From Lentisphaerota bacterium (GTDB lineage Bacteria > Verrucomicrobiota > Lentisphaeria > Victivallales > Victivallaceae), in the NCBI GenBank assembly GCA_015061775.1, contig SUVY01000004.1, positions 1 to 64,000 of the forward strand: DNA of 64,000 nucleotides, written 5' to 3'. The position numbers were made by a program, and so were the translations under genes. The notes below the pieces were generated by a model. It was given only the letters and a program-made list of their open reading frames with translations. It was not told the origin of the DNA and did no database searches. Every line of letters starts with the position of its first letter. The stretch's first letter is position 1. Below are positions 1-54,469 of this stretch, piece after piece.

Positions 1-3000
1 TGGATATCTCGGTGGTATCTTTTTCGAGGCTCTTGGAGATTGCCTCGGCTAAAGCGTCGGTCATGGTGCTTGCGCCGTCAAGGCTGGTGTCGCCCTCTAT
101 CTTTTCAGGAACGACCACAAGGTCCATGGTGTGGTCTTTGACTTGACCTCCGCTGGTGGCGGTGATGATGACTTCGGTCGTACCGTATCCGGTGGCGGTG
201 TCGGTGATTTTTCCGGTGGTTCCGGAAAACTTTCCGGTATTGGGGTCTATTTTCAGCCAGTCAGGAGCCTGAGTGAGCGTATAATTATTGTAGCTCAGTT
301 TGGAAAACGCTGTGTCAGGAAGCTGTGCACGCGTCTCCTGTTTCTCTCGGTCGGCACGTTTGCTGTATTCACTGTTGACCACAACCGAGAGTATATCAGT
401 TTTCTCATCAAGTTTGAGCAGGAAACTGATATTTCCGACTTCAAGAGCCTTTTTCATATCAAGCGTAAGTCTGCCCTGATTGGTTCCGTCTTCGCTCTTT
501 ATGGTGATATAGCCGTCAAAATCCGAAGCGTTGGCCGCGAGCTGGTAGGTTCCTGCCGCCTGCTTTTCGTCGTAGGTGACAGAATAGGAGCCTCCGCCGG
601 ATATGCGCTCCCAATCGCTTATTAAGATACCGTCATCTTCTCCACGCTCGACGATGTAGAAATCAAGGTTGCCGTTGTTTTTCATTGTACCGGCATAACT
701 TCCGCTGTCGGCAAACGTGACATTGCCTCCGAAAGAGACGTCTCCGGCGAGAACTATGTTGCCGAGATTGTAAACAGTATCATCAACAGTGAGGAAGTCC
801 GCTCCGGAAAGAACAAGCTCGTTTGCGTTGTAAATCGCTCCGCCTGAGGACGCAACATTACCTGAAAAAACCGCTCCCGAACCGATAGTCATCGTACCAA
901 AGTTACAAATCGCTCCACCCATAGCAAGCGGTCCGAATGCACCGTTGGCAATGAAGGAGGCGTTACTGCCGATATCAAAAGTACCGTTGCCATAGAGATA
1001 AAGAGCTCCACCGCGGCAAAAACTGTCGGCAACGATGGTATTTCTGGAAAAAACGGCATTGTTGCCTATCACGGTATTTCCGCCCATTTGTTTTATACAT
1101 CCACCACCAGCCTGATTGTAGTAACTTTCAGAGCCCAATCCGACGTTACCTTCAAAAAGGACATTATCTCCAAAACTAAATTGTCCTTTCATGAAACTCA
1201 TAAGGCAAGCTGCACCATTAGGATCAAAAACAGTATTGGAAGAAAATACAGCGTTACTGCCGAAACTTAACTCGACATCCGACCATCCACTCTGGATTAT
1301 CATCTTGCCGGTGTTTTCGGAAAAAGTAAAATTATTTCCAAATTCGATAATCGATCCGCTGTCAAGTGCAAGCAATCCGCGTGATGAGAGATTTGTATTT
1401 TTGATTATGCTGACATTATCACCGGTTTGCAGCTTCGCATTTTCTGAGACCATACCATAGCCGCCATTGGTTATAAGATTGCCTTGGTTACCTGATATTA
1501 CTGCTCCTGAACCGATACTCATATAACCGAGATTTTGGATGCCGGGATCATAAGACGTATAGCCATAAGCTGTTTTACTGCCCAAAAAATTGTCGGTGAT
1601 CGTTGCAGACTCTCCAATGGTCACGCTGTTAAGGTTTTTGATAAGACCGCCGCCGCTGTTTCCGGACAATACAACTCCGGACTCGATGTTCACAACTCCG
1701 CCAGAGTCATTGCCCAGGAGGGTAACGCACGACATAAGCACATTCCCCGTGACTTTTGCCGAACCGCCGATGTTCAGCACCCCGGTATTGTGTATCACAC
1801 CGTACCAATCGTTATTATTGTAGGGCTCAGTTGAAACGGTCTGACCGCACAACTGCATATTGTTTCCGACAGTCAACTCACCGCTGTTGTTGATAACTGT
1901 GTCACATCTGAAAAAATTATATGAAGACTCATGGATTTTAAATACCAAATCTGAGCCGATAACTGTTTTGGAACCATTCAAGATGGTGTTTCCATGAAAT
2001 TCAAAATTGCCGATATCAGCGTTTACTCCGATGACGACTGCGCCGTCTGCATCTATTGCTACTCTATCTGCGGAGCCATATACACTCAAAACTCCTCCGG
2101 ATAATACATACGCGTTATCGACCTCTACGCCTTGATTTATAACAAAACGGTTATCCATCAGGGTCACCGTGCCTATTTTTGCTCCGGATCGAATATCTGT
2201 TTGATCGTAACCGTCATAGATAGAAAGATTATTTACAACTCCACCGGAATAAACACGAAATGCCTTGTCATATCCATTGAGATTCATCAATGTTGCGCTG
2301 CTCACCAAAGCTCCGCTGTAAACGTCTACCGCACCGTGAGAAAATACGTCTATATTGCTTACAACTCCGCCGCTGTAAACCTTCATTCCCCATTCGTTAT
2401 AAGTGTCAGCTGTTTTCAAATAAACATTATCGACGACAGCTCCATCGCTGACATTCAACCTGCAAAATCCGGATAGATTGATATCTTTTATTCTTCCGCC
2501 TGAGGCATAAATATTACCGTCTGACACATAACATTTTTCAAGTGTTCCGCCGCTTGAAATAAAAACGTGACCGCTTGACACATAAGTATCTCCGGCGGTC
2601 GCTCCGTCATAGATATACATAAAGCCGGAAACCAGGTGAGTGTTATTCGCTCTGGCTCCTTCTGAGCAAAGCATTCTGCCAGCCGGTCTGACGGTATTTC
2701 CTGTAGCAACACCTCCACTTAAAATCATAACTCCGTCGATGGTGTTGGCATCAGCAGTACCTGCGTAAACAATGGCAGACTCCTTTTGGGACAATGTGGA
2801 ACTCCGCAATGTGGACTGTTTGGAAACAAACATATTATCCTTGCCCAAATAGACATTGGCATCGCGGTCGAGATATCTGACCGCTGCTCCGGCTTGAGAT
2901 TCGACAGTACCAGCCTGCCACGGGTTGTATGTTATGGTAACGGCAGCTCCGTCACATACCTCAAGTAAACTGCCGGAGGTATAAAGCAGCACATCTTCCG

Positions 3001-4141
3001 CGTATCCGCCGCTTGAAACGATCACGGCTCCGGAAGAACCTACTGTGATATTTTTGGCATAGCCGTTGTCATACACAGTCACCAAACCGCCGCTGCCGAC
3101 GACGGTATTGCTCGCAACTCCGCCGGCTTGTACGTAGATTTCTCCGTTGTCTGTATCCCCGGTAACTGTGGTATCGCTTGCAAAACCATACAGTGATACA
3201 GTTCCTGAACCGGTAACAGAACAATTATCTAAAACGCCGCCGGTATATACGATGGCACGCTGGGTGTCTATTTCATAATCAGAAACACGGTCTTCTTTGA
3301 CCCAAATATATCCATACATATATGAGCCGATATACACGTTGGCTTCACGCGGCAACCAGGTCACCTGAGCTCCATCATAGACGTCGACATGACATGCAGT
3401 GAAAGGATTGAAGGAAATATTTGCGCTTCCGCCGCTGTAAACACGGACTTGTCCCCAACAAGGAGTAATCAATTCGACGACTCCGCCTCTGGACACTCTG
3501 GCAAAACCACCATTCACATTAAGAGCATTGACACGGGCTCCGCTGCTTACGTACAGCTCACCAAACAAGTCGATATTCCAGCCCAAACCTCCATCGGTTA
3601 TACGCACGCTGGTATTGTTGTCGATTTTTCCCTCGTAAACATAGCCTGATTCGACGAGTATCTTGCTTGCGGCATAGGAAGCGATACCGTCGCCTCCATG
3701 ATCGAGGATGCCCAACAGATGGTCGGTTTCGTGGGAGATCGTATTTACGATATCGTCATTGGAATCAAATTCATCCAGCAAGACAAACGCCTTGTCTTTT
3801 TTATTCCGGTTGCCTATGTCTATCGTTTCGGCAAGTCCGGAAAAGCTGCCGTATGGGTCGAAAGCAGATGTTTTGCCGATACAAATCGTGGAATAATCCA
3901 CATCGAGAGGGCGTTTATCAACAAAAGTGACATTCAAACCGGAATATTTCGCATTGAGTTCAGCAATTATATCAGCAATACGCTCTGCGGAGAGTTTCGG
4001 GTTTTCAACTTCGACATTATCGACCGTCAAAAGCTCTCCGTTATAACTTGTCAGCTCTCCGTCAAAATCAAGGTACACATATTGTACTGCAATTTGTGAA
4101 ACATATTGCAATCCGCCGTTTGTTGTAATTTGATGTTCCAT
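1..4141 (-). CDS. Giant AIDA/Pmp-like repeat surface protein with N-terminal metallopeptidase-like motif, 3' truncated by window edge
   Basis: The frame is open from an ATG at 4141 to base 1 (about 1380 residues) and continues beyond the window. A GGAG lies 8 bases before the ATG. No signal peptide is visible. Residues 1-160 include a YLDFDGE stretch and a zinc-protease-like HETDHLLGILDH at 137-148; this is one residue longer between Gly and the last His than the metzincin HExxHxxGxxH, so activity is uncertain. Next come AIDA-like repeats of the form VYSGGVVxNxxV (to roughly residue 680). They are followed by repeats rich in GGAI and FSxN, as in chlamydial Pmp proteins, suggesting a right-handed beta-helix. 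The last part seen has an Ig-like He_PIG segment (APDWLKIDPNTGKFSGT). It is probably a secreted adhesin or self-processing surface protein. Absence of a signal peptide could mean type I-like export; that is inference. Confidence 0.8.
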   Translation of the reverse strand, partial: MEHQITTNGGLQYVSQIAVQYVYLDFDGELTSYNGELLTVDNVEVENPKLSAERIADIIAELNAKYSGLNVTFVDKRPLDVDYSTICIGKTSAFDPYGSFSGLAETIDIGNRNKKDKAFVLLDEFDSNDDIVNTISHETDHLLGILDHGGDGIASYAASKILVESGYVYEGKIDNNTSVRITDGGLGWNIDLFGELYVSSGARVNALNVNGGFARVSRGGVVELITPCWGQVRVYSGGSANISFNPFTACHVDVYDGAQVTWLPREANVYIGSYMYGYIWVKEDRVSDYEIDTQRAIVYTGGVLDNCSVTGSGTVSLYGFASDTTVTGDTDNGEIYVQAGGVASNTVVGSGGLVTVYDNGYAKNITVGSSGAVIVSSGGYAEDVLLYTSGSLLEVCDGAAVTITYNPWQAGTVESQAGAAVRYLDRDANVYLGKDNMFVSKQSTLRSSTLSQKESAIVYAGTADANTIDGVMILSGGVATGNTVRPAGRMLCSEGARANNTHLVSGFMYIYDGATAGDTYVSSGHVFISSGGTLEKCYVSDGNIYASGGRIKDINLSGFCRLNVSDGAVVDNVYLKTADTYNEWGMKVYSGGVVSNIDVFSHGAVDVYSGALVSSATLMNLNGYDKAFRVYSGGVVNNLSIYDGYDQTDIRSGAKIGTVTLMDNRFVINQGVEVDNAYVLSGGVLSVYGSADRVAIDADGAVVIGVNADIGNFEFHGNTILNGSKTVIGSDLVFKIHESSYNFFRCDTVINNSGELTVGNNMQLCGQTVSTEPYNNNDWYGVIHNTGVLNIGGSAKVTGNVLMSCVTLLGNDSGGVVNIESGVVLSGNSGGGLIKNLNSVTIGESATITDNFLGSKTAYGYTSYDPGIQNLGYMSIGSGAVISGNQGNLITNGGYGMVSENAKLQTGDNVSIIKNTNLSSRGLLALDSGSIIEFGNNFTFSENTGKMIIQSGWSDVELSFGSNAVFSSNTVFDPNGAACLMSFMKGQFSFGDNVLFEGNVGLGSESYYNQAGGGCIKQMGGNTVIGNNAVFSRNTIVADSFCRGGALYLYGNGTFDIGSNASFIANGAFGPLAMGGAICNFGTMTIGSGAVFSGNVASSGGAIYNANELVLSGADFLTVDDTVYNLGNIVLAGDVSFGGNVTFADSGSYAGTMKNNGNLDFYIVERGEDDGILISDWERISGGGSYSVTYDEKQAAGTYQLAANASDFDGYITIKSEDGTNQGRLTLDMKKALEVGNISFLLKLDEKTDILSVVVNSEYSKRADREKQETRAQLPDTAFSKLSYNNYTLTQAPDWLKIDPNTGKFSGTTGKITDTATGYGTTEVIITATSGGQVKDHTMDLVVVPEKIEGDTSLDGASTMTDALAEAISKSLEKDTTEIS

Positions 4142-4241: not shown

Positions 4242-4275
4242 AAAAAAAGGGACTCCGGATGTGTGGAGTCCCTTT
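4242..4275 (-). terminator. Rho-independent terminator of pnp
   Basis: A perfect 8 bp stem (GGGACTCC/GGAGTCCC, 4249-4256 and 4265-4272) with an 8-base loop is followed on the minus strand by seven Ts. It starts 17 bases after the pnp stop codon. Confidence 0.9.
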
Positions 4276-51400: not shown

Positions 51401-51429
51401 TTGATGCAGTTTTCTGCTTGCAATAATAT
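51401..51429 (+). promoter_or_regulatory. Promoter of the exporter-umuDC operon
   Basis: TTGATG (51401-51406), 17 bp spacer, TAATAT (51424-51429). The -10 is a partial match. No recognisable SOS box was seen, but the LexA site of this phylum is not known to me. Confidence 0.45.
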
Positions 51430-51493
51430 GTTTCCTGAGGTAAGTTTTATCAGTGACAGAAATCCAAACAAAATCTGCAAGGAGCTTCACAAC

Positions 51494-53281
51494 ATGAAGA
51501 CGCGACGGTCGCAGGACATCGACAAGAAAACCCTGCTCGAAAGTTACGATCGGCAACCCCTCGGGAAAATTCTCGTTCTCTTCAAACCTTACCGCAAAAT
51601 GCTTGTGGCATCTTTCGTGCTGATGGTATCGCTCAACATGATCGGACTCACCCTGCCCTGGATGCTTAAAATTGCTATTGACAGAGTGCTTCCCAACGCA
51701 GATTACCTGCTCTTCTGGGTACTCTGTTTTGCCATGACCATCACCTATCTCGCCCGGTGTCTGCTGCGCTATCTTGCAAGTTACACTGTTGACTACACCG
51801 GAATCCGCCTCATCGTAGATATCCGGCAAAAAATATTCAAACACCTCCAAAGCCTGTCGCTGCGTTTTTATCAGGAGTACAGAACAGGAAAACTCATCAG
51901 CAACGTTATCAGCGACGTTGCCCTGCTCAATATGATGATGCGCCTCACGTCAGCTCTGGGAGAGCAGATATTCCAGCTTATGCTCATTATCATCCTGCTC
52001 GTCATCCTCAACTGGCAGATGGCTCTCATCGTGCTTTTATGTCTTCCGCTTCACTTCTGCAACTTCTATTTTGCAAGAAAAGCTCTGAGAGCCGACTCGA
52101 TGATGTTCCAGGAAAAAATGTCTGAAATATCCGCTAACCTCTCTGAAGCTCTCACCGGAGCGAAGGTCATCAAATCCTTTGCAAAAGAGCAGAGCGAATG
52201 CCGCAGATTTTTCCAGAACCTGCGTCCGATGGTCGCCCTGCAGATGAAGGTCACGCTCGACAATATCGGATTGTGGTGCGTGTTCGATATACTGACACTC
52301 TTCACCTATCTTACCACCATCGGTCTCGGAATCATGTATGTCCAGACCGGAAAAGTATCCATCGGTGAATTTGTCGCATTTTACACCTACGTCGGTATGC
52401 TCATAGGTCCCATCCAGTCTCTTTCCACTCAGGTCGTCACCCTCGCCCAGGGTATGGTCGGAGCAAGCCGCGTTGTAAAACTGCTCAATACAATTCCGGA
52501 AATCAAAGAGTGCGCAAACCCCATCCATCCGGAACGACTTGACGGACACATCGAATTCCAGCATGTCATGTTTTCATACGATCCGGAAAAACCCAATGTC
52601 ATCAACGACTTCAATCTTGAGATCAAACCTGGAGAAAAAGTCGCGTTGGTCGGTCCATCCGGTTCCGGAAAATCAACCCTCAGCAACCTTCTGCTCCGCT
52701 TCTATGACGTTACTGGCGGAGCGATCCTCGTCGATGGCTACGATGTCAAACGTCTCGGTTTTGAAGCATACCGCCGCAATATCGGCGTCGTTCTCCAGGA
52801 ACCGTTCCTCTTCTCAGGCTCCATACGCGACAATATCGCATACGCTAAAGACAATGCATCAATGGAAGAGATCGAACGCGCTGCGGAGATGGCGAATATC
52901 GCAGAGTTTATCAAAGGACTTCCTGACGGTTACGATACCATTATCGGTGAGAACGGCGCAAGTCTTTCCGGAGGTCAGAAGCAGCGTCTTGCCATTGCCC
53001 GTGCGGTTCTGCTCAACCCGTCGATACTCATCCTCGACGAAGCGACAAGTGCCCTCGACACCGTATCCGAAACAGTGGTGCAGGAGGCTCTCGACCGTCT
53101 GATGACCGGAAAAACCACCGTCATCATCGCCCACCGGCTTTCCACAGTCCGCAATGCCGACAAGATCATCGTTCTCGACCGCGGCCACGTTGCGCAGAAA
53201 GGCACACACGATGAACTTATGGCGCAGGACGGCATATACCGCGAACTTTACCAGACCCAACGCCGCATGGCGACCAAATAA
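51494..53281 (+). CDS. ABC transporter, MsbA-like half exporter
   Basis: A 595-residue protein: a six-helix membrane domain (about 35-330) followed by a nucleotide-binding domain (about 360-590). ATPase motifs are complete: Walker A GPSGSGKST, signature LSGGQKQRLAIARA, Walker B ILILDEATSALD, and IIAHRLSTV with the switch His. It works as a homodimer, exporting a lipid, peptide or drug; the HlyD-type adaptor 12 bases downstream suggests a tripartite or adaptor-linked pump. AAGGAG supports start 51494; the longer TTG start at 51401 is the promoter -35. Confidence 0.92.
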   Translation: MKTRRSQDIDKKTLLESYDRQPLGKILVLFKPYRKMLVASFVLMVSLNMIGLTLPWMLKIAIDRVLPNADYLLFWVLCFAMTITYLARCLLRYLASYTVDYTGIRLIVDIRQKIFKHLQSLSLRFYQEYRTGKLISNVISDVALLNMMMRLTSALGEQIFQLMLIIILLVILNWQMALIVLLCLPLHFCNFYFARKALRADSMMFQEKMSEISANLSEALTGAKVIKSFAKEQSECRRFFQNLRPMVALQMKVTLDNIGLWCVFDILTLFTYLTTIGLGIMYVQTGKVSIGEFVAFYTYVGMLIGPIQSLSTQVVTLAQGMVGASRVVKLLNTIPEIKECANPIHPERLDGHIEFQHVMFSYDPEKPNVINDFNLEIKPGEKVALVGPSGSGKSTLSNLLLRFYDVTGGAILVDGYDVKRLGFEAYRRNIGVVLQEPFLFSGSIRDNIAYAKDNASMEEIERAAEMANIAEFIKGLPDGYDTIIGENGASLSGGQKQRLAIARAVLLNPSILILDEATSALDTVSETVVQEALDRLMTGKTTVIIAHRLSTVRNADKIIVLDRGHVAQKGTHDELMAQDGIYRELYQTQRRMATK

Positions 53282-53293
53282 GGAGTTGAAAAC

Positions 53294-54469
53294 ATGGCAC
53301 ATCAGGTCGAAAAAGTCAACTTCCAGAAACAGCTCAAGGTTTTCCGCAGAGTCGGAGTCACCATAATCATCCTGCTCGGAGGTCTCTTCGGAGTCATCCT
53401 CTTCGGTTCAATGGATGATGAAGTTACCGGTCTCGGCACAGTCGCAGGTATCAGAGAATACGATCTTAAAGTTCTCGTCAATGCCCAGAGTGTGAAAATC
53501 CTGCGCCATGAGGGAGAAGAGGTCGAACGCGGAGAGCCTCTCATGCAGCTCGACTCCCGCAATCAGGAAGACAAAATAGCTTTGCTCCGTCACGATGTCA
53601 AAGCTCTTGAAACTCAGGTCGCGGCTAAGGAAAAAGCTCTTGTCCTGCTCAAGAAAGATCCCCTCCCGGACTACTACCGCAACACCGAACTCGAACTTGG
53701 AACTGCGAGGGAGCGGCTCAAACTCTCAGAAAAGGAGTTTGAAGTTTATTCCGACCTCTACAAGCGTAAAACCGTGACCCGTAAAGAGTTCCTTCAAGTC
53801 GAACTCAGTCTGCTCTCAAACCGCATGAGCGTTCAGCGGCTCGAGCGGGACCTCAAACGGCTTGAGGACGGCATGGCTCAGCAGATCATCGACCGCGCTA
53901 CTGACGAGCTGCGGCTGCTCCAGCAGAGACTTGCCGCAAAGAAAGATGAGTTGAAGATGGCGATAAGGCATCTTGAGGACTACATCATACGCGCTCCTGA
54001 CGCAGGAATTGTCACTGAAATACCTCCGCGTCCCGGAAACTACTACACAAAAGGCGATGTTGCAGCCAAATTTGCCGCAAATCAAAACAAGAAGGTCATC
54101 GGTCTCATCCATGAGAGCCAGATATACAAAGTCGAACCCGGGCAGCTCGTCCGCATAGAAGCGAAACAGTACAACTATCTCGACTACGGTTATTTCACAG
54201 GAAAAGTCGATGTCGTTTACCAGCTTCCGGTGGAAATCGACAAGAGCAATTATTATCCGGTCAAAATCCTGCTCACGGATGAGAAAATGCCGCTGCGCTT
54301 CGGCTCGGGCTGCGAAGTTACCATTATCACTGGAAGAGAGCGCATCATCGCCGTTCTGCTGGGTATCCGCAGCAGAGATTATCTTGCACGCAGAGGATTG
54401 GTCAAGAACAAAATCAAAAAAGCTCCGCAGGCTTACGAAGCAGTGTTGTCTGCTCCGGAAGGGAAATAA
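53294..54469 (+). CDS. HlyD-family membrane fusion (adaptor) protein
   Basis: A 391-residue protein with one N-terminal membrane segment (about 20-42), a biotinyl-lipoyl half-motif (VKILRHEGEEVERGEPLMQLD), a long alpha-helical coiled-coil hairpin (about 95-235), and the second half-motif YIIRAPDAGIVTEIPPRPGNYYTKGD. A beta-barrel and a basic tail follow. It would link the inner-membrane ABC exporter to the periplasm or an outer-membrane pore. The next gene is umuD, only three bases downstream. Confidence 0.9.
   Translation: MAHQVEKVNFQKQLKVFRRVGVTIIILLGGLFGVILFGSMDDEVTGLGTVAGIREYDLKVLVNAQSVKILRHEGEEVERGEPLMQLDSRNQEDKIALLRHDVKALETQVAAKEKALVLLKKDPLPDYYRNTELELGTARERLKLSEKEFEVYSDLYKRKTVTRKEFLQVELSLLSNRMSVQRLERDLKRLEDGMAQQIIDRATDELRLLQQRLAAKKDELKMAIRHLEDYIIRAPDAGIVTEIPPRPGNYYTKGDVAAKFAANQNKKVIGLIHESQIYKVEPGQLVRIEAKQYNYLDYGYFTGKVDVVYQLPVEIDKSNYYPVKILLTDEKMPLRFGSGCEVTIITGRERIIAVLLGIRSRDYLARRGLVKNKIKKAPQAYEAVLSAPEGK

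Follow-up and report, generated by a model that had tools for sequence, protein, structure and literature searches.

The first 4,141 bases of the DNA examined here raise the question of why a bacterial adhesin without an evident signal peptide should begin with what looks like a zinc peptidase, and how such a protein would leave the cell. The window, meaning the whole stretch of 64,000 nucleotides that was analysed, comprises bases 1 to 64,000 of contig SUVY01000004.1 (C25; 80,487 bases) from a Lentisphaerota bacterium of the family Victivallaceae (GCA_015061775.1). The adhesin gene lies on the reverse strand, as an open reading frame (ORF) of 1380 codons with no stop that runs from an ATG at position 4141 to base 2 and is still open at the first bases of the contig. 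Because the window begins at base 1 of C25, an assembly edge, the C-terminus of the protein is missing. The reading favoured here, to which about an even chance of being right is given, is that of a type I-exported, probably O-heptosylated beta-solenoid adhesin with an optional N-terminal zinc-peptidase head.

The protein starts with a leader of 17 residues (MEHQITTNGGLQYVSQI, bases 4091 to 4141), which has aligned counterparts in near relatives and in a peptidase-less paralogue on contig C73 of the same genome. The head itself, a mini-metzincin-like domain, occupies residues 18-160 (3662 to 4090), as delimited by the family alignments A1 and A3, a structural model and its fold comparison. Within it, the ORF translation and the alignment place the motif HETDHLLGILDH at residues 137-148 (3698 to 3733), with H137, E138, H141 and a shifted third histidine, H148. 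The repeats that follow, AIDA-type and then Pmp-looking, form a predicted beta-solenoid from about residue 167 to about residue 1159 (665 to 3643, boundaries approximate). They match the NCBIfam model auto_AIDA-I with an E-value of 1.5e-13, yet far below that model's whole-protein cut-off, and there are further matches below cut-off to TIGR04415 and Pfam AIDA. The initial annotation, which described more than 1000 residues of AIDA/Pmp-like repeats, was right about the AIDA type and slightly generous with the length, which is about 990 residues; the Pmp likeness is by eye only, with no match of the Pmp models to the window protein at E <= 1.

The head belongs to a family unnamed in Pfam, with members in Lentisphaerota and Planctomycetota and in one Nostoc. 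When residues 1-171 served as the query, 23 of 100 genomes including the source genome had matches, some of them partial, with up to 12 copies of the domain in one genome and a single copy in the source genome. A scan of a named genome collection found 98 relatives, of which 78 loci were kept; these are mostly Lentisphaeria/Victivallales records, with nine from planctomycetes, one labelled Nealsonbacteria and one from Nostoc. A profile scan of the phylum matched 57 of 387 genomes at E <= 1e-5. These three sets overlap and are not independent. Two ORFs were dropped as short (L077 and the second ORF of L129), and alignment A3 holds 62 rows, made up of the window domain and 61 of the 78 remaining stretches. 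The 17 left out are mostly near-copies and include the degenerate L108 and L112 and the truncated L129. In the last of these, a Victivallaceae record, the domain is split over two ORFs (1287-1727 and approximately 3576-3713) about 1.8 kb apart, perhaps broken by an insertion. The named rows closest to the window domain in the tree are from Lentisphaerota, several of them from sheep colon, and the host bacterium is probably a gut member of this phylum.

H137, E138, H141 and the third His are retained in 59 of the 62 rows, which rules out a chance motif and upholds the earlier description of a metallopeptidase-like motif in the first 150 residues. The ratio of nonsynonymous to synonymous substitutions (dN/dS) could be taken from 75 of the 1891 possible pairs, those whose dS is between 0.05 and 1.2; its median is 0.20 and its maximum 0.735, indicating that the head domain is under purifying selection. 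The three rows without the catalytic Glu are also without the third His. In a survey of position covering 65 rows from loci L053-L116, the domain lies within 90 residues of the ORF start in 60, all with an intact site. Of the other five, L068 is intact and its ORF is open at a contig start, and L099, L108, L111 and L112 are degenerate. A further copy deep in its ORF, L118, has lost the Glu and the third His, and all five degenerate copies are more than 300 residues into their ORFs. The planctomycete copies and L119, at 73-274 residues, have an intact site. The columns of D25, D27, E105, D108, N111 and D116 (A3, window numbering) are about as conserved as the zinc ligands, and these acidic positions, with the one Asn, are possibly a second metal site.

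The extra residue before the third His, relative to metzincins, is real and is the commoner state of the family. The gap between the second His and the third is six residues in 45 of the 59 intact rows and five, the metzincin number, in the remaining 14. In the 45 shifted rows the residue before the third His is variously D (19), E (13), N (7), S (3) or T (3). The shifted His is invariant across them, and it is on account of this invariance beside a variable standard slot that His148 is likely to be the third zinc ligand. A tree made by a quick method, with its root on the very long Nostoc branch, requires three changes of spacing when Nostoc and the three degenerate rows are counted, two of them forced by branches starred in the tree. 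Nostoc apart, all 13 intact rows of standard spacing share one branch (Shimodaira-Hasegawa-like approximate likelihood ratio 93, not starred), and a single change of spacing is likely within the intact rows other than Nostoc.

The other hallmark of metzincins, the Met-turn, is not conserved. The window protein has no Met in the 100 residues that follow H148, the first 70 residues past the third His are free of Met in 24 of 61 relatives, and no Met position is common to more than four; a PIMG-like turn was seen by eye in the Nostoc protein (L130). A Tyr or Phe is present at position 156 in 50 of the 62 rows, shortly before the repeats begin. Tyr156 (3674 to 3676) could be a stand-in for the Met-turn, by analogy with the mini-zincin Acel_2062 (PDB 3e11), where the C-terminal Tyr113 is described as occupying the place of the Met (PMC3890501). 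The head and Acel_2062 are also alike in having little sequence past the third ligand. The Acel_2062 mini-zincins differ in their Asp ligand, where the window domain probably has His, and the head sits on giant surface proteins. With the metzincins (adamalysin/reprolysin M12B, matrixin M10, archaemetzincin M54) the head shares the HExxH helix, the third His and the predicted fold of the N-terminal subdomain; it differs in spacing, in the Met-turn and in having no C-terminal subdomain before the repeats. By these sequence features the head is neither a strict metzincin nor an Asp mini-zincin. Among profile models, at E <= 0.1, Reprolysin_3 is matched by 23 of the 62 members (best 1.8e-6) and Peptidase_M10 by 21 (best 2.9e-5), and Zincin_1, which we take to be the Acel_2062 family, is weakly matched by four (best 8.6e-5). 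The Nostoc protein is over the cut-offs of Reprolysin_5, Reprolysin_3, Reprolysin_4 and Peptidase_M66. A homologous zincin domain is also found near the N-terminus of LEPR-XLL giant proteins of planctomycetes (NF012209 over its cut-off in two of six scanned, L122 and L126). Unlike the window protein, these have the standard HExxHxxGxxH spacing, other passengers and, where the window protein has its GGxQ leader, what looks by eye like a LEPR-XLL stretch.

An AlphaFold2 model built on A3 has a predicted local distance difference test score (pLDDT) of 88.7 and a predicted template modelling score of 0.82, with the active-site helix at residues 128-142. The top Foldseek rows for it are venom metalloproteinases and myroilysin (probability 0.95-0.99, E about 0.01), with poorly superposed Ami1 amidase chains at ranks 4 and 24. 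In VIA its best match is acutolysin A (Z 7.7, root-mean-square deviation 4.2, 115 residues), and all of the 50 matches listed are of zincin type, including ADAM22, an inactive member. The model of a planctomycete sister with standard spacing (L122) has a pLDDT of 91.9. In VIA it matches a peptidase of archaemetzincin type with a Z of 8.4, and in Foldseek the mini-zincin 3e11, which has no Met-turn, comes sixth with a probability of 0.99. Comparison of sequence profiles with experimental structures yielded nothing significant (best E 0.37 and 0.048). With moderate scores, the predicted fold of the head thus resembles metzincins and mini-zincins, which tells somewhat against the prospect, raised in the initial annotation, of a model with no zinc site; the accompanying prospect of homologues lacking the Glu and His is answered by the 59 rows above.

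The absence of a signal peptide, and an export route left unexplained, were both remarked upon in the initial annotation. None is evident on the window adhesin by a crude hydropathy test: the highest Kyte-Doolittle mean of any 11-residue stretch within residues 1-45 is 1.12, with values of up to 1.73 in 59 relatives and 2.19 in a single control, another ORF of the window that seems to carry a signal. The test is crude in that two of nine paralogues in the same genome reach 1.93 and 2.05 from the first Met. The route is now largely explicable by type I secretion, because relatives end in RTX repeats, the paralogues share a C-terminal module and the genome has the type I parts. Of 45 distinct intact ORF ends among the named loci, 16 appear by eye to consist of RTX repeats and, after them, a conserved tail about 75 residues long. 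Fourteen of these were aligned, and PF00353 is over its cut-off in all three that were scanned (L056, L108 and L111). The other intact ends have CARDB repeats, FG-GAP-like repeats or unclassified sequence. In the source genome, nine AIDA-repeat paralogues with intact ends, for which the same crude test likewise shows no evident signal peptide, all end in a common module of about 300 residues with 45-94% pairwise identity, which is present at 14 places in the genome. The same genome encodes an HlyB-like ABC exporter on contig C23 with PF03412 (C39-like) and PF00664 domains, an HlyD adaptor that passes the TIGR01843 cut-off, and TolC-type outer-membrane proteins, with OEP matched in two ORFs. 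Two 5'-open ORFs at contig edges, L208 (C23, 3-2420) and L209 (C73, 32519-34942), carry the C-terminal module and are 98% identical in DNA over the first 299 bases; one of the two may supply the end that the window protein lacks.

Other routes and parts were considered and set aside. An ABC and HlyD-like pair within the window (51401 to 54469, forward strand) is not a good candidate for the exporter, its ABC protein matching MsbA-like models better than HlyB. The autotransporter route is disfavoured, since eleven related proteins with repeats or CARDB domains and a complete C-terminus (L056, L070, L083, L085, L093, L144, L147, L148, L108, L111 and L118) gave no match to a barrel model. A type IX secretion tail is not favoured either: the Por_Secre_tail matches, in L093 (18.8, residues 495-544) and near the C-terminus of L083 (17, residues 1634-1675 of 1693), are weak and under the cut-off of 23. 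A GG is present in the leader, but the C39-like domain on C23 is without the expected catalytic Cys (by eye), which discounts a double-glycine leader cut by a C39 peptidase. The window family thus differs from the AIDA-I, Ag43 and TibA autotransporters in its lack of an evident signal peptide and of barrel matches, and is like them in its heptosyltransferase-target AIDA repeats and in the presence of a BAHT-type heptosyltransferase in the genome. It resembles type I RTX proteins such as serralysin and the LapA adhesins in having no evident signal peptide and, among relatives, a C-terminal RTX region and tail. Serralysin, a metzincin with RTX repeats, also has protease and RTX in one chain. Unlike these, the family has a huge solenoid between protease and RTX and no Met-turn, and in the source genome neither a convincing RTX tail nor LapG was found.

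The BAHT-type heptosyltransferase is encoded on contig C71 (15556-16683, L193) and scores 583.7 bits against a cut-off of 200 for TIGR04414. For the target repeats, TIGR04415 is marginal, reaching 30.5 against a cut-off of 30 only when neighbours are included and 26.3 with the whole window protein. The heptosyltransferase suggests glycosylation of the repeats prior to export, by analogy with AIDA-I, for which glycosylation ahead of export is described in PMC4358343. A word search of the main text of that paper found nothing on other phyla or on type I secretion. Contig C71 also carries a Pmp-looking protein with the common C-terminal module (L210, 1432-4956).

The head is, on the gene content of this genome, an optional addition to the adhesin, since there is one copy of it against nine intact AIDA-repeat paralogues without it. 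A complete paralogue on C73 (L144, 8291-12910, reverse strand) has about 50-60 other residues, by eye, in place of the peptidase domain. It has a leader of the same kind (MEQQNIASGGVQCIPQIA) and a stretch 75% identical to window residues 1159-1380. A motif that starts the solenoid is found right after the head in 9 of 60 rows and at the start of two of the nine paralogues, which is weak support. In L108, L111 and L118, inside AIDA-repeat proteins, a degenerate zincin copy directly precedes a full-length Peptidase_C10 match, and L085 (10001-12967) has the head, CARDB repeats and then a partial match to the C11 (clostripain-type) model (1-211 of 359). From these few architectures, it seems that a stalked peptidase is retained and swapped for others, which would favour an external substrate over self-processing.

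The sequences themselves establish the family, its conserved site and spacing, the optional head, the common C-terminal modules and the secretion and glycosylation genes of the genome; zinc binding, catalysis, the route by which this particular protein is exported, its glycosylation and its target are inferred. In the favoured mechanism, the head would be a shortened metzincin with only the N-terminal subdomain, active-site helix and third His, and no Met-turn; its third His is moved out by one residue and the Tyr or Phe would probably support the site. The predicted head would most likely act like a metzincin reduced to mini-zincin size. The adhesin, probably O-heptosylated, would leave the cell by type I secretion, and the finished protein would either stay on the cell surface or be set free from it. 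The most likely target of the head would be an extracellular protein, for example a mucus protein of the host, matrix or a surface protein of a competitor.

A number of findings weigh against this reading. The distribution of the head domain across the phylum is patchy, at 57 of 387 genomes. Against Pfam, the isolated window domain matches no family and the whole window protein no peptidase family. The VIA Z of 7.7 is in the range that the tool calls common (<8), the Foldseek E-values for the window and planctomycete models never reach 0.001, the five best Foldseek rows of the L122 model are Ami1/Rv3717-type amidases with poor superposition, and three YbeY-type entries, which are nucleases, appear lower in its VIA list. 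With regard to export, there is no convincing RTX tail in the source genome (one match, E 0.055), so that the case from its own genome rests on the FG-GAP-like module, whose role as a type I signal is unproven. The score of the HlyB-like protein is below the curated HlyB cut-off of TIGR01846 (642 against 725.55), and none of the 22 ABC matches in the source genome passes the PrtD cut-off.

It is possible, if on the unlikely side, that the domain is a structural cap that closes or anchors the solenoid without cutting, whether or not zinc is bound. The missing Met-turn and the unusual ligand spacing would fit such a role, as would the retention of the domain in internal copies whose site is lost, and D25, D27, E105, D108 and D116, conserved as well as the ligands, may form metal sites of a structural kind. 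Against the cap stands the Glu, which a zinc site with no more than a structural role would not require: it is present in every row that has all three His, and the three other rows have lost both it and the third His. In a very improbable version of the site, D147 in the standard slot would be the third ligand and H148 a mere neighbour. The window does read HExxHxxGxxD before its His, as in the snapalysin motif HExxHxxGxxD, and D is the commonest residue in the slot, but N, S or T fill it in 13 of the 45 shifted rows, the following His never varies there, and the third ligand is His in the 14 intact rows of standard spacing.

Self-processing, as proposed in the initial annotation, would have the head cut its own chain after export or free itself from the exporter, and is distinctly unlikely. 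In type I secretion the C-terminus leaves first, so that the head, N-terminal in 60 of the 65 rows surveyed, would be last out. No match to LapG (PF06035, Peptidase_C93) was found in the source genome, in a search in which Caulobacter was matched among 14 control genomes, and a release protease is otherwise unaccounted for. Yet the nine paralogues do without the head, one of them despite sharing the leader and near-identical C-terminal sequence, and the adhesin evidently does not need it; some relatives carry other peptidases, and no cleavage site was noticed after the domain, for which no systematic search was made. Quite improbable is the more specific proposal of a one-protein LapA/LapG switch, in which a new minimal zinc peptidase, as the last-exported end folding at the exporter mouth, would hold the adhesin there and then free it by cutting itself. 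The LapA type of anchoring (in the part of PMC13090378 that was consulted) is an analogy only, LapG not having been found.

Towards the open end of the gene, a putative Ig domain (He_PIG) is matched over its cut-off at residues 1264-1336 (134 to 352). The last 97 codons (2 to 292) encode protein 100% identical to the C73 paralogue, with 285 of 292 bases the same and the first 115 bases identical. The identity at the open end of the gene fits an assembly break in a repeat, such identical bases being a common cause of contig breaks. A terminator-like hairpin (4246 to 4275, reverse strand; one found against a mean of 0.4 in shuffled sequences) lies between the adhesin gene and the gene upstream, presumably that of polynucleotide phosphorylase. 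This suggests that the adhesin gene has its own transcript; no sigma-70-like promoter was found.

Among the literature matches, listed by title and start of abstract and with most subscription papers outside their scope, there is no description of the head family, and in the part of PMC8286594 that was consulted neither Lentisphaer nor peptidase is mentioned. To our knowledge, the surface biology of gut Lentisphaerota has been little studied. The findings add a zincin family unnamed in Pfam, with a probable shifted third ligand and no Met-turn, which offers a natural test of the minimal metzincin needed for catalysis. They also point to AIDA-type, probably glycosylated adhesins in gut Lentisphaerota that would be exported by type I secretion rather than as autotransporters. 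Should it prove active, the head would be a candidate for a protease with which bacteria of the ruminant gut attack mucus or matrix.

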